A DNA stretch of 22,058 nucleotides from Saccoglossus kowalevskii (lineage: Eukaryota; Hemichordata; Enteropneusta; Harrimaniidae): positions 1-22,058 of the forward strand of contig NW_003127380.1 in NCBI RefSeq assembly GCF_000003605.2. The letters run 5' to 3'. The stretch's first letter is position 1, and each line of letters opens with the position of its first letter. The position numbers were made by a program, and so were the translations under genes. This document shows, in pieces, positions 3,731 through 19,979 of this stretch. The notes below the pieces were generated by a model that was not told where the DNA came from, made no database searches, and was given only the letters and a program-made list of their open reading frames with translations.

Positions 3731-3762
3731 CAACACACACTATAATATGCTGAATATTTATT
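3731..3762 (-). terminator. Polyadenylation signal with GU-rich downstream element
   Basis: On the minus strand AATAAA occupies 3762-3757. It is followed within about 15 bases by TATAGTGTGTGTTG (3744-3731), a typical GU-rich downstream element, so cleavage is expected near 3740-3745. This gives the EF-hand gene a 3' untranslated region of roughly 390 bases. A second AATAAA at 3806-3801 could give a slightly shorter transcript. Confidence 0.6.
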
Positions 3763-4131
3763 ACACCAAATCAACGAGAGTCTGTTGCAAAGTACACGGA
3801 TTTATTTACAAATTCGACAGAATGACATGAATATAATAGTTGTCACAATCATAATAAAATAAACGTAATTGCTTTGTCGTAGTCTAAACACGTGATGACG
3901 TTATGAATAAATGGAAATATCCTAAAAAATAAGTCATAAGCTAGATGCGATTCAAAAACTATCCTCAGATGTTGAAAAAAAAACATATTTCTCACGCCAC
4001 ATTTCTTTAGAGTTCAACACATGTACACACACTAGGTCCTTGAAAACGCATTATGATTTGGTCAGCGCACACTTTTCTAATTACTCCTAATTGTCACTCA
4101 TCCCCTGTTGTAATGAGACGAATAGTTGCCG

Positions 4132-4205
4132 TTACACGTTGAGCTGGTCTTCTTCTGAACTCTCGCCATCCTTGATGTATTCGCTGAGACTCACCTTTCC
4201 ATCGC
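4132..4205 (-). other. EF-hand gene, coding exon 3
   Basis: The acceptor is TTTTCTTTTGTAG ending at 4206. The exon completes the split Gly84 codon, then encodes the rest of calcium loop 2, a short YIKDG segment and an acidic end before TAA at 4134-4132. The frame is correct only with the phase-1 donor of exon 2, which supports both sites. Confidence 0.9.
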
Positions 4206-7200
4206 CTACAAAAGAAAACGAAAACAAAATCGAGTCAGAAAAACTTTACCCTTTTATATGCGCCATTGAGAACGAAGCAAAGAATAAGCCTTGGAAATAC
4301 TTTTCTTTGGAACGTCCGCCTAATGGTCGTTTACAGCTATCGAGTGACGCACACTTTTGTGGGCAGGTCACGATCCTTGTCAATCTATTCAGTGAATGAA
4401 ATGAATGAAATAAACAAGTGGAAGGTGACTTAGATGATAGTAATCGACGGAAGGCATGAACTGGGAGGGTTATGCTAATTAAAATAGAAGATACAGTTGG
4501 CGTACGTGATGAGAATAATTTAAAGTTCTAATCACTTTCAATAATGCTAGTTTGAAGAGTAATACCAGTATCTATACAGCCGACAATGCCATCGTTAGCT
4601 CGAGGAGATATTGACGCATACATTTGCGAATGTCTTTTTATCACTCACCGTTGAGATCAGCGGACTGGAGAAACTCCACAAGCCTCTGTACTTCGTTATC
4701 AGTAATAACACCATCTTCGTTCAAATCGAATATACGAAATTCCGCTACATATTCCTTGAATGTGGGCTGAATTTCGGATCGTTTGCAAGACGCCATGCTC
4801 AGTACCTTCCAACGGTTCCGACATGATGCGTTGTTTACTGAGATGAGTTGAACGAGGATTAAACCAATGAATAAAACGCCAACTACAAGAAAAGATTACA
4901 TTTTTTACTTTTTCTGTGAAATAAATATAATGTAACTCACGAGATACGCCCGAGTGTGTCCCGTAAGGTAGCCTCACTGGAGGTAAACTACAGATTATTT
5001 TGTTGATTCGAACATTCTAAAATTTACTTAACACGTAACCATGGCGATATATGTTTCAGGTAACTGGGAAGCAGAACACGATTGTCTAAATGTCATTATT
5101 TGTGCAAGAAATTTAGGTAGCAAGAATGGGGCAATATTTTTTTCTTTATTTTCACGTGTATTTAGACCACCGCGGATAATCAAAATATTAAAATTTTGTC
5201 TTGTAGTTTTATTTGAAAAAAAACAAAAGTTTATCTTTGGGGTGGCTCAGATGATATGCATGTTTGTTTGTCTATCTTTTCTTATCATATGCTTTCAAAG
5301 TAAAGCTTAGATTTGCATATTTTCTCCTAAATTTACAACAAATCGTATCAGTGGTCAACAAGTTTTATAATCATTAGTGAATTGTGATTTAATGATATGT
5401 CAAATATGTCGTGTTTAGTACCCAGTACGTTGTTTTACGGTTTCACAACATTGAAGACAAATGTGGGCTTCTGACTGGATCTCCCATCAAATTGAGTACG
5501 CCTGGTATATATTGCCCAACTTTGCAATAGCGACAAGCAAGGCAGTGACAGAGCGAACATGTCTTGATTATTGAAACCAAAATTGTCACAAAACAAGGTT
5601 TCTTCAAGCACGATAAATATCATTAAAATACTAGGTAGAAAAAAAGTCGGACGAATTTACAAAAAATGGACACATCGGTCAGGACATTGCGTGAATGTGA
5701 GGCGGAAAGTCTTCCCTATTAATCTTGGGTTTTAAAATTTTGATAAGGTTCAGTTATTTGACGTGCCATATGTGTACAATGTGACTATCCACCAGGTAAG
5801 AAATATATTCAATTTTTCAAAAGCATATATCTATGTTTAGAACTAAACATCAGGCATCGGATGCTTTATAAAGTCATCTCATTACCTCAATTTATTAGTT
5901 ATAGCTTTTGCAGGGTGTTCACACTACATACTTGAAACCCTCGCTTATTTTAGGAAAAAACGAGCTACAAAATCGACTTTGATGTCTTGGTGTGTGTATC
6001 CGTAGTTATTTCGACAAGATCGTGAACTAAACCAATCTGACTTGCAACGCTAACTAGGAACGTTTCAGTCAAGAACAATTTCATAGGCATAAATGTTAAT
6101 CGGCTATAATGTCTTCCAGATTACATTAGCAATCTCGTCTTTTATATATAAGTGTTGGCATACTACGAATATATCAGCGCGACATTCAAACTGACGACCA
6201 CGGTAAAGCGCCTTACCACTGTATGCAGACGTCTTGCTTATACTGCAGCCGTTCTAACCGTTGCAAAAAGACAGCTCCACAAAACGCGTAACAAACATTG
6301 GCATTCAGTGACCAGATGGGCATGCGCAAGTGGAATCGCAGCTTGGGTTGAATGTTGTCATAGTTACACATTCAATAAGTTATAGAAAATATTATATGTG
6401 ATAATTAATGATTAAATATGTGTCTTGCTTCTCCTGTCGCCATCAAACCAGACTGTGATAATTTGGTAGACTAAGAGGAATCAAAATAAAATCATAACTG
6501 CCCATGTATGACTCAATATATACGACTCCCCTCCCTAGTTACAATTTTATCTTGAATAGGATGAAAGTGACCTCTCTGATAAATGACACAGAATCAGCAT
6601 CTCAAGACATTTTACAATAACTGCGATGAACATTCACGTTTCTCTACAATAGCACATTTGCCGAATGTCGCGACTGTATGCAGTTATAACCTGACTCTAT
6701 ATATATGATTGAAGCTAACCGTGAAAACGTAGGCGTGAAATATGTAATACGAAAAAATTGTTGAATTGGAATTGTATTGTTGGTTTCAACATGATATATA
6801 TTTAATATGTTTTTACACGTACCTATATTTAGGGAAACAGTTTCAATCAACGGTGACTAAATCATATTTTCTTAGATTTGTGCTATAACTTTTATCTCAG
6901 AAGTTAGTTAAAAAATAATTCATAAAACATGTTGATCTACTACACATGTTGTCAAATACTAGTAGTTCAAAAGTTTTTGATACTATACTGTGGGCATTGT
7001 GCGAGAATTTCTGAGCGGATTGGGTTAGTATGAGGTTATTGCGAGCGAGAACAAGGCAAAGTATACGCGACGCAATGACCTACGCGTATATCTTATGTGT
7101 ATATACAGGTATTCCAGCCTGTAGCCGTAATTGTAGTTAAGGGTAATATAACAAGAAAATAACACATCCACACACAAACAAATAAATAAAACACACACGC

Positions 7201-7962
7201 GGTTTTGTGGCGTTATTATATTTCCGCCACGCGCTACATTATTACTTCGATATAAATTTATGGGAATGCTTTAATGTGACATAGACATTAAGTGCATTTA
7301 AAAAAACACGGAAAGCGTTCTAACGCGTGTCAGGTATATAATACTAAATGATACCCACATTGAAGTCACAAAAAACACGAGAATTTCCCTATGATCCCGT
7401 GACTTGAACTGTATGCATACTTATCTAACTTGCGCTCCTACAAACGCATTTCAAATATTTCCTTTTAACTAGATATTTTGATGAATGATAACTTTAAAGA
7501 TACTATATCAGATTGTTTACACACTCGATACTGTTGGCAATATTTTATGAGTTAGTCGATTTTATGTAGCTGTTTGAAACCGCGTGTATTTTCTTAATTA
7601 TAGTATATTCAATGTGTCTATTTTTTGGTAAGTAATAAAGGTAATGTCATTTATCATAATAATACCCTTTACTGGACAAGAACGACCCCAAAAGACAAAT
7701 GACGACTACGATGAATTAATGTGTGCCACCCTGTCACACAGGTACGCCGGCACCATTAAAAGCGACGTTGAAAGAAAACGAGCCGCTTTCGATACAAATC
7801 AATATAAAATACTTGCTTTAAAAGAGAAACATTTCGCTGAAAAATCAAATTCAAAACCACAACATAACGCAATAGGAAACACTGAAGCAGAAAGTCACTA
7901 GCCGAAGAGCTGTTGAACTTGACAGACGTTGAACATCAACACTTACCCGAATGTGTTTTCAT
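4132..7962 (-). CDS. Secreted two-EF-hand calcium-binding protein, three coding exons
   Basis: Joining 7962-7947, 4882-4649 and 4205-4132 gives 324 nt, that is 107 residues and a TAA stop. Residues 1-24 form a signal peptide: MKTHS, then the hydrophobic core VGVLFIGLILVQLI, then SVNNA. The mature chain has cysteines at 26 and 38. Loop 1 is DLNEDGVITDNE (58-69) and loop 2 is DLNGDGKVSLSE (81-92); each has Asp/Asn at positions 1, 3 and 5, Gly at 6, a hydrophobic residue at 8 and Glu at 12. An acidic tail ends at residue 107. The start ATG at 7962 has A at -3 and an in-frame TGA at 7980-7978 just upstream. Both introns are phase 1. From family knowledge it should bind calcium outside the cell or in the secretory pathway; its partner is unknown. 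The EF-hand exons are near certain and the short first exon is an inference from matching phase and the resulting signal peptide. Confidence 0.85.
4206..4648 (-). other. EF-hand gene, intron 2 (443 bp)
   Basis: The donor is CG|GTGAGT (4648-4643) and the acceptor is pyrimidine-rich. The intron is phase 1 and falls inside calcium loop 2, between Asn83 and Gly84. The plus-strand frame 4091-4399 crosses it and is a shadow. Confidence 0.88.
4649..4882 (-). other. EF-hand gene, coding exon 2
   Basis: The acceptor tract ATCTTTTCTTGTAG ends at 4883. The 234-nt exon encodes the hydrophobic core of the signal peptide, the two cysteines, the entering helix around TFKEYVAEFRIF, all of loop 1, the linking helix VQRLVEFLQSA and the start of loop 2. 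An internal ATG at 4796 in good context could start a 73-residue cytosolic form, but the 29 open codons before it encode a signal-peptide core. Confidence 0.88.
7389..7440 (-). mobile_element. Possible tRNA-derived SINE head (remnant)
   Basis: On the minus strand GAGCGCAAGTTAGATAAG resembles the D-arm/A-box part of tRNA-derived SINEs. It is followed after about 10 bases by a B-box-like AGTTCAAGTCACGGGATC. The spacing is shorter than in a real tRNA and the T-stem pairs poorly. No poly-A tail or target duplication was identified, so the call is tentative. Confidence 0.25.
7644..7901 (+). CDS. Unrecognised 85-residue open frame antisense to intron 1
   Basis: The frame starts at a real ATG and stops with TAG at 7899-7901, only 40 bp from the exon 1 donor of the EF-hand gene on the other strand. 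After a hydrophobic start (MSFIIIIPF) the product is strongly hydrophilic and predicted helical, with segments such as DDYDELMCATLSHRYAGT and VERKRAAFDTNQYKILALKE, more protein-like than most frames here. A CAG|GTACGC site lies inside it and could act as a donor. No homologue is recognised and no poly-A signal follows closely. It may be a small gene, an exon of a plus-strand gene, or chance. Confidence 0.25.
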   Translation: MSFIIIIPFTGQERPQKTNDDYDELMCATLSHRYAGTIKSDVERKRAAFDTNQYKILALKEKHFAEKSNSKPQHNAIGNTEAESH

Positions 7963-8022
7963 GTTGCTCGGCTTGGTTCACTTGTTGAATGTGGTATACC
8001 AGGAACGCGTATCGACCAAAAG

Positions 8023-8039: not shown

Positions 8040-8395
8040 CAGCTCTTATATATACTCGAATAACAAGCTCATGTTTATTTAATTTTTGAGACGCATTCAT
8101 CATATTGAGCGATTTGCACAAATGACAAGAATTCCATAGTAGCATGTGAATAAAAGGCATATTTAATCGCAACATCAGAAGGAAACAAAGATAATTGGAA
8201 GATAACGAGTTTTGTGAATGCATGCGATCACTAGCCGCGATACTAATTCTCATGTAAAATTTATTACTTTATGGTAATGTCATTTCACGCCTCTGTTCAT
8301 ACTTACACTTATGATAGACGAGCATCTTCCGATTGAAATTCAAATTTGTCTACTTCAATCTGTTTTTTTTTGTCATGGTTTGGCAATAGAGTGAA
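8040..8395. other. Upstream flank of the EF-hand gene
   Basis: No gene was recognised. The minus frame at 7978-8253 ends on the TGA just before the EF-hand start codon and is not a continuation of that protein. A T-rich tract lies near 8360. Confidence 0.3.
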
Positions 8396-12545: not shown

Positions 12546-12797
12546 ATGGTCTTTCCGGGCGTGCTGGCAGAAGTAAATAAAACCGCAACAAAGTATCATA
12601 GAATTGTATACGTATTGTTACTAAATGCATCATGGTTTTTGAATTCATTCATAAAGTTAGTTGGGGGGAAAGAACACTATACTTACGAAACACACTTCCT
12701 GGCGGTCACGTCAAATCTGCATATTTATTGCATGTGTTCAAATGATATAAACAATGATGGAATGATTTCTATTTCTATTATTAACTATTGTTGTTAG
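12546..12797 (+). CDS. Open frame ending in a degenerate EF-hand-like loop
   Basis: An ATG in good context (AAAATGG) opens an 83-residue frame ending at TAG 12795-12797. Near the C-terminus, 12744-12779 encodes DINNDGMISISI. This has the EF-hand pattern Asp1-Asn3-Asp5-Gly6-Ile8 but Ile instead of Glu at position 12, so calcium binding would be impaired. No second loop follows; the frame ends six residues later. The upstream part has a hydrophobic segment and no recognised domain. It may be a relic of an EF-hand exon or a coincidence. Confidence 0.22.
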   Translation: MVFPGVLAEVNKTATKYHRIVYVLLLNASWFLNSFIKLVGGKEHYTYETHFLAVTSNLHIYCMCSNDINNDGMISISIINYCC

Positions 12798-15253: not shown

Positions 15254-15295
15254 GTTGTGTTGCGTTGCGTAGCGTTGTGGTGCGTTGCGTTGTTG
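15254..15295. repeat. Degenerate GTTGC minisatellite
   Basis: The plus strand runs through imperfect five-base units of the type GTTGC/GTTGT. The regularity is visible by eye and the length is about 42 bp. Confidence 0.6.
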
Positions 15296-16759: not shown

Positions 16760-17975
16760 ACGTATAAGGTTGCATTGTCGTCAGTAGAATTCCTTACCCC
16801 CAATTCTTTTAACAGATTTGCATGGTAGAGTTTCTCGGTACCAGTCTGCCTGATTCATTTCTCGACATGATATGGTCATTGTCGTTGCATACACATATTG
16901 TTCTTGGCCATAGAATAAGGACTTTGCACGTTTGTCAAAAAGTGCTGATCACTAGCTACTGGCAGGTGTCCTTCAATAAATTTTGTAGATCGATGTAATA
17001 TGTACAAGGTGGTCAATGGATCTTGCACCGTCCTCCCTTGCAAAAGCTCAAATAGAGAAAATCCTGAGATGCTGAGAGCCTATACGTATGCAAACAATAA
17101 AGAACCTATGTAACAGTACAAGTCTTTTGGCCCACTAGCTACGTTTGAGCATGGAATTAAAGATGATATAATGATATGACTTTGAAATGAGCTGTTTAAA
17201 GAGTGGCCCAGTCATGCACGCGGCTTGCAAAGTTCCAGTGTAGTAAAGAGTACGCACTTCTAGGTCCATTTTGAGGACTCGTAACATCAGCTATCATCTC
17301 ACTTTCTGTTCACTGAACCTAAACCCTGTTTATTGGAGTCATTCTCCATCACCTAAAAACAAGTGTGTGCAAACTTCCTGCAGGTTGAGATAGTAAAAAC
17401 TTGTTAGTGGTATTCGTGTGTGGCATAATCATGCTCGTTGACATTGCAGTTGTCTGGAAATCAAGCGCAAGGATAAATTTCCCTCTTAGAGCGGTTGTTA
17501 ATAATCTGACATCTGTGACGTATAACTGGGTGATATTATTTGCCTGTTTACTCACTACAGGCGGTATTTGGGATTTCTGTGTGGTGTACGCCGTCTTATT
17601 AAACTTGGATTTGGCCTTTAACTTTTGGTATAATAGCCTTGTTCATTCCGGAGGTCTCCAAATTACGCTCGAGTCTTGACGCTGGAGTTATTTGAAATCA
17701 CCAACATCTCAGGGTTAAACCGTACGTGCTATAACAATTCCAGAGCTTCCACATGCACAATGACGAACATGTTAATGTCACTGTGTTAAATAATGCTCGA
17801 GTCGGATCATAAATTGTCTGGAGGTCTCAAATTTATTAGGACGTGCTAGTTGAAAATCATTCTGTTTGCCCTCCATGCATTCTGCATGTCAAAACCCTCA
17901 CACACTTTCATGGTCATTAAAGGATATCCCACGAAGTAACTTGTTGACAAAGACACCGCCAGTAATCAACTGGCT
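16760..17975 (-). mobile_element. Degraded Ty3/gypsy retrotransposon pol fragment
   Basis: Read on the minus strand, short recognisable blocks occur in pol order, broken by stops and frame changes. LITGGVFVNKLL (17969 down) resembles the retropepsin DTGxSGVFVNKxLV region with the catalytic Asp codon missing. In one frame, 17660-17460, KAKSKFNKT, then QLYVTDV, then RGKFILALDF follow the usual path from the zinc-finger tail into the integrase core. FNSMLKR (17161), PKDLYCYIGSLLFAYV (17130) and GFSLFELLQGR (17064) match the conserved integrase end. FDKRAK (16939), KVLILWP (16925) and KLYHANLLKEL (16833) match the C-terminal module. At least three frames and several stops are needed, so it is inactive. 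No LTRs were identified. It is a genomic retroelement and not a functional gene. Confidence 0.85.
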
Positions 17976-18805: not shown

Positions 18806-18808
18806 ATT

Positions 18809-18879
<71 letters not shown>

Positions 18880-18881
18880 TA
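18806..18881. repeat. (TTTA)n microsatellite
   Basis: About 18 uninterrupted TTTA units run from 18808 to 18879. The purity of the array suggests recent expansion or active slippage. Confidence 0.95.
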
Positions 18882-19366: not shown

Positions 19367-19939
19367 TTATTTTGCATTCATAAAATGGCTATGGTTTTTG
19401 TTCAAAACTTTATTTACACGAACAAGCCTGGGAAAATTCATTTCCAAGATTTCTGTACTAATTGGCGTCATTTTAAACGTGTCTACCTTGCAATAATAAA
19501 CTGGAGGGCCAGTTTGTGTTAGCCGTCGTATCAGCAACTGTTCTGATGTTTTGCAAAATGTATTCATTTTAGTAGTAATATATATCAATAAGGGATGACA
19601 TCGTTCTTTAAGACATTTCACACTTAATTTCACGCCGTTGAGTGTCAAAAAAATCAACGGAAATGTTTGATAACTTGGTTTTAGAATGATTGTAAAACCT
19701 ACTTGATATGTCAATATGTTGTGAACATTTAAGTAAATGTATATTGAGACATAGAGATGAATTTTGTAATTTGCACTTAGATAGAGGCGTTTCCAATCTA
19801 TTTTGATATTCCAAGGCATAGTATTTTTACAAAATAGTTTGATGTCTCCATATTGCACAAAATGTATTTTGGTAAATTGTCTAAAAGTGCATCTCAATCT
19901 TAATCCTGGTTGTTTATATAAGTTGTAAGATGGAAGCAT
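19367..19939 (-). CDS. Unrecognised 190-residue open frame
   Basis: This is the longest uninterrupted frame in the window. The first ATG is at 19939, with the frame open for 12 codons before it back to a TGA. A stop-free run of about 200 codons is unlikely in DNA this AT-rich. The middle contains two hydrophobic stretches (for example HLYVSIYIYLNVHNILTY), and the C-terminal third is basic (LLIRRLTQT, FPRLVRVNKVLNKN). No domain is recognised. It might be a single-exon gene, part of a decayed transposon or a chance frame. The smaller frames at 19305-19496 (+) and 19608-19814 (-) overlap it. Confidence 0.27.
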   Translation of the reverse strand: MLPSYNLYKQPGLRLRCTFRQFTKIHFVQYGDIKLFCKNTMPWNIKIDWKRLYLSANYKIHLYVSIYIYLNVHNILTYQVGFTIILKPSYQTFPLIFLTLNGVKLSVKCLKERCHPLLIYITTKMNTFCKTSEQLLIRRLTQTGPPVYYCKVDTFKMTPISTEILEMNFPRLVRVNKVLNKNHSHFMNAK

Positions 19940-19979
19940 AGTTGCAGCCTTACCGTTATGTGGGCGAGTTAACACTCAG

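Follow-up and report, generated by a model that had tools for sequence, protein, structure and literature searches.

Can a contig encode a secreted calcium-binding protein when no single open reading frame shows one? This question is raised by a stretch of 22,058 nt from the acorn worm Saccoglossus kowalevskii (the window), which is the entire contig C1986 of an assembly of 572,110,611 bases (572 Mb) in 4830 contigs. A first-pass annotation, made from the letters alone, had proposed that three short minus-strand exons join here into a split gene for a secreted EF-hand protein. We conclude with good confidence, from the sequence and the controls described below, that the window holds a three-exon, TATA-driven minus-strand gene for a probably secreted protein with two predicted Ca2+-binding loops, of which no second convincing copy was found in the assembly.

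Results

Gene structure and splicing

Joining the minus-strand segments 7962-7947, 4882-4649 and 4205-4132 gives 324 nt in phase, which encode 107 residues and then a stop (Table 1). The joined sequence agrees with the exon model first proposed in its exon lengths (16, 234 and 74 nt), its phases, its product and both of its calcium loops. The matching phase-1 sites on which that model relied were found again, both introns being phase 1 and GT-AG, and the 3 kb said to separate exon 1 from the rest corresponds to the 3064 nt of intron 1. The in-frame stop reported ahead of the start codon is a TGA that begins 18 nt upstream of the ATG. The internal ATG placed at 4796 is, by arithmetic, the codon of M35, the sole other in-frame ATG preceding loop 1. 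Intron 2 cuts the coding sequence after the first base of the fourth codon of loop 2.

Table 1. Positions of the gene's features in the window, listed in the direction of transcription.
Feature	Position	Strand	Remarks
TATA box TATATATAAG	8045..8054	(-)	90-92 nt 5' of the ATG; transcription start would be expected near 8020
Exon 1, coding part: MKTHS plus one base, donor CGG/GTAAGT	7947..7962	(-)	16 nt
Intron 1, 3064 nt, phase 1, GT-AG	4883..7946	(-)	length from exon coordinates
Exon 2, 234 nt: hydrophobic leader core, cysteines 26 and 38, EF-hand loop 1 DLNEDGVITDNE, residues 1-3 of loop 2	4649..4882	(-)	
Intron 2, 443 nt, phase 1, GT-AG, interrupting EF loop 2	4206..4648	(-)	
Exon 3, coding part, 74 nt: remainder of loop 2 (GDGKVSLSE), acidic tail, TAA stop	4132..4205	(-)	
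Two AATAAA signals, which begin at 3806 and 3762, the latter preceding a GT-rich stretch	3757..3806	(-)	326 and 370 nt past the stop

The splice sites were ranked against the other candidate sites of the window. Donors were scored with human donor frequencies, and among all 1396 minus-strand GT sites the two donors of the model, CGG/GTAAGT and ACG/GTGAGT, rank second and third. By a simple home-made score applied to 978 acceptor sites, the acceptor at 4205 is excellent (rank 8) and that at 4882 just fair (rank 79). Loop 2 is present only in the spliced sequence. When AG acceptors of both strands were joined to exon 2, one of 2021 restored this loop, the predicted acceptor at 4205. Likewise, when each GT towards the end of exon 2, or in the few bases that follow it, was combined with each AG 60-3000 nt downstream, a single join out of 1422 yielded two loops, and it is the predicted one from 4649 to 4205.

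The top-scoring donor of the whole strand, AAG/GTGAGT at 4195, lies within exon 3, where it encodes KVS of loop 2, and we read it as coding sequence. Three acceptors further downstream passed the filter; joined in phase 0 to 4195, they would append 5-14 residues, then a stop, and abolish loop 2. With its short tail and missing loop, such a product was rejected as the main form; it could still occur as a minor form in which splicing removes calcium loop 2.

EF-hand loops and domain matches

Two 13-residue matches to PS00018 (a 12-residue loop with ligands at positions 1, 3, 5, 7, 9 and 12) begin at residues 58 and 81 of the joined protein, placing the loops at residues 58-69 and 81-92. Loop 1, whole in exon 2, is the sole stop-free match to this pattern when all six frames of the window are read, and 100 randomised windows held a mean of 0.05 such matches. 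A plus-strand candidate for an EF loop, DINNDGMIS at 12744, is without the last ligand and was put down to chance. Above their cut-offs, the joined protein matches EF-hand models only, five in number: EF-hand_5 (2e-11), EF-hand_1 (1.1e-8), EF-hand_7 (4.8e-7), EF-hand_8 (7.2e-7) and EF-hand_6 (1.6e-6). EF-hand_7 describes a canonical pair, with two loops about 36 residues apart in one contiguous stretch; its score of 30.5 bits lies just above the cut-off of 30, yet the match falls into two separate stretches. The two PS00018 loops and the five Pfam models together place the protein in the EF-hand superfamily.

More specialised families fell short, with type I dockerin (PF00404) at 20.2 bits, below its cut-off of 22.9, and CpaD below its Pfam cut-off. 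The calcium-binding domain of SPARC is a secreted EF-hand pair, from which the present protein differs in that it scores 18.6 bits on the model PF10591, under the 22-bit cut-off. The protein resembles the single-motif EF-hand models PF13202 and PF00036, both of which score above their curated cut-offs, and it has two loops. Two sequence searches of the PDB found EF-hand proteins among the best 60 of 369 matches (best E 4.3e-6) and among the best 60 of 399 (best E 7e-7), including calmodulins, calcineurin B and calcium-dependent kinases. In these two sets the best stretches mostly cover one loop, or both at unequal lengths; in some entries for calcium-dependent protein kinase 3 (3o4y_A, 3k21_A), both loops are spanned by stretches of equal length.

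When the unspliced window was searched in six frames with Pfam (stop codons read as X; E <= 0.1), no family rose above its cut-off. The one EF-hand match, EF-hand_5 at this gene, scored 16.4 of the 25.9 bits needed, and the other frames gave none. A scan of the whole genome with EF-hand_7 returned 63 places at E <= 0.001, from which this gene is absent. Frame-wise scans miss it because introns split one calcium loop and the predicted signal peptide. The first-pass annotation had anticipated that ORF-based annotation would pass over the gene, as these results bear out, and its reading, a split gene for a secreted EF-hand protein that is invisible in any one frame, stands as the best one available for the locus.

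Elsewhere in the window, the sub-threshold Pfam names were HNH, zf-H3C2 and Sde182, and searches of the window with Rfam at gathering scores, for tRNAs (bacterial code) and for repeats of >=24 nt returned nothing. A stop-free minus-strand frame of 202 codons at 19367-19975 lies in the most AT-rich kilobase, and a frame of equal length was seen in one of 200 randomised windows. It has no Pfam family above cut-off and could be an exon or chance. There is also a perfect TTTA array of 18.2 copies at 18808-18880 and an imperfect array of the pentamer GTTGC, 7.8 copies, at 15254-15292.

Loop spacing

Loop 2 starts 23 residues after the start of loop 1, which leaves 11 residues between the loops, whereas paired loops in six other EF-hand loci of the genome start 36 apart. 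The comparison comprises the eight loci L001-L008 of the EF-hand_7 genome scan, in which the pattern found eight same-frame pairs in six loci, all spaced 36 (two pairs each in L001 and L003, one each in L002, L005, L006 and L008) and no same-frame pair in L004 and L007. In local alignments, four of the eight match the protein across both loops only if a gap of 13 residues is opened, and for the other four no match was reported. Because the spacing is 23 here and 36 in the six other loci, the loops probably share one helix, which would be at once the exit helix of loop 1 and the entry helix of loop 2.

Leader and mature protein

The protein begins with Lys2 and His4 ahead of a hydrophobic core, whose 12-residue mean Kyte-Doolittle value from residue 8 is 3.0, and continues with small polar residues as far as Ala24. 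Judged by this composition, a signal peptide and secretion are plausible, as is a cut after Ala24, with the qualification that the Asn at -3 of the proposed site is not ideal. Cut at this position, the protein would leave a mature part of 83 residues, with a calculated pI of 4.46 and with cysteines 26 and 38. Tiny first coding exons such as this one are not rare. Phase-1 introns are described as over-abundant near signal peptide cleavage sites in an earlier study (PMC1626468); compared with cleavage-site introns, intron 1 sits earlier, after codon 5.

Copies and relatives

A search of the assembly with the whole protein gave no second convincing copy, within the reach of a method that works exon by exon and scores the best candidates only, and which a diverged or finely split paralog could escape. 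Six candidates were scored. Two are the gene's own two larger exons, exon 2 matching its own place only (E 1.1e-46), and the four others have E values of 0.48 to 4.5. L013 was rejected as a paralog (24% identity, E 1.09), having internal stops and no EF loop on either strand, and is attributed to chance. L012, L014 and L015 overlap EF-hand places of the genome scan and carry EF loops; they are EF-hand frames of other genes. Viral contigs and prokaryote genomes, in which no eukaryotic gene would be expected, gave 7 and 160 pattern matches, respectively, and none of these was confirmed as a relative. A literature search found no paper that could be tied to this gene, a negative that carries little weight. 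Several EF-hand places lie close together on each of contigs C3285, C3987 and C2559, which suggests tandem arrays of calmodulin-like genes.

The first exon and other readings of the locus

Sixteen coding bases say little alone, so the whole exon-1 arrangement was tested. Candidates were sought over the 17 kb that precede exon 2: start exons no longer than 150 nt whose phase-1 donor scores at least 4. The TATA demand required a TATA-like site lying 40-250 nt ahead of the exon, the interval from the expected start site to the exon's own ATG being free of other ATGs. Three start exons emerged. The exon of the model, with a donor score of 7.14, is the only one above 7 and the only one with a TATA-like site in range, and no ATG occurs between 25 nt after the TATA start and the gene's own ATG. 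The other two have one common donor at 16798 (score 5.74), with no TATA box in range. In first-order Markov sequences, a start exon with a donor score of at least 7 and a TATA site appeared in none of 200 sequences of 17 kb and in one of 500 of 5 kb. TATA-like sites are frequent in the window (54 on the minus strand), and the randomised control takes account of them. Exon 1 is convincing because donor and TATA site combine.

We think it unlikely that exon 1 is wrong, that is, that the true first coding exon lies elsewhere or past the contig end, with exons 2 and 3 unchanged. Among start exons of at most 150 nt with a donor score of 4 or more, the only alternatives upstream are the two weaker candidates that splice from 16798 without a TATA box in range, and either would place a longer charged stretch ahead of the hydrophobic core. 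What speaks for another first exon is the only fair acceptor at 4882, the little information that 16 coding nucleotides carry, and the outcome of the Markov control when the TATA demand is dropped, in which 25 of 200 sequences of 17 kb hold at least one equally strong start exon. Moreover, the window is the whole contig, so the view upstream stops at the contig end.

A start at M35 would yield a cytosolic EF-hand protein of 73 residues, with exon 1 non-coding or absent. As the one alternative in-frame ATG ahead of loop 1, M35 would leave both loops in place, but the open, in-frame, leader-like stretch of exon 2, VGVLFIGLILVQLISVNNA, would then be a coincidence, and an exon with a TATA box and an ATG would be left unexplained; we consider this very improbable. 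Lower still do we rate a pseudogene, whether a decayed copy of a gene for a secreted EF-hand protein or one that is not transcribed, to which we give hardly any credence: the frame, the four splice sites, the TATA box and the poly(A) signals all appear intact, even if the assembly shows no intact parent or sister copy, a point on its side.

Discussion

The gene anatomy and both loop motifs are observed here, and around them we can outline how the three-exon gene may work. Minus-strand transcription would begin at a TATA promoter near 8050 and end at a poly(A) site, probably near 3740, as the AATAAA signals and the GT-rich stretch suggest, and the three exons would give rise to a 107-residue pre-protein. 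Its N-terminal ~24 residues would form a signal peptide completed only by splicing, and cleavage after Ala24 would release an acidic mature protein of ~83 residues in which C26 and C38 could form a disulfide. The two loops, on their putative shared 11-residue helix, would bind calcium extracellularly or within the secretory pathway. The protein might then serve as an extracellular calcium buffer, or as a calcium-stabilised matrix or signalling protein. The product is most probably a normal small secreted Ca2+-binding protein of a known kind, whose gene has a tiny first coding exon.

Small secreted EF-hand proteins have been described before. Orpin, with two EF-hands, is reported from echinoderms and Saccoglossus (PMC9501386). 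Compared by that description, the present protein is like Orpin in being predicted as secreted and acidic, with two EF-hands and a cysteine beside the cleavage site, and differs in size and spacing: Aj-Orpin has 164 residues and loops at 117 and 147, a spacing of 30, against 107 residues and a spacing of 23 here. The abalone shell-matrix protein Hdh-SMP5, as described in PMC10741955, is likewise a short, secreted, acidic EF-hand protein with close first loops, the first two of its three starting 20 apart. The molluscan SMP5 type, as described there, has three loops in 134 residues, in contrast to the two loops in 107 residues found here.

The compact spacing is the sole feature that might go beyond the ordinary. 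It is tempting to imagine a lineage-restricted, single-copy secreted protein, with two canonical EF loops at both ends of one shared 11-residue helix, that works as an extracellular Ca-dependent dimer. In that reading, loops on a shared helix would be unable to pair intramolecularly in the usual way, hence the calcium-dependent dimer. We hold this to be speculative and on balance unlikely; if true, it would represent a compact EF-hand form set apart from calmodulin-type pairs.

For genome annotation, the gene is a clean example of what frame-by-frame domain scans miss, and an annotation made without transcript data could omit it or label its product cytosolic. Its recognition would add one small secreted calcium-binding protein, whose close loop spacing may interest structural biologists.
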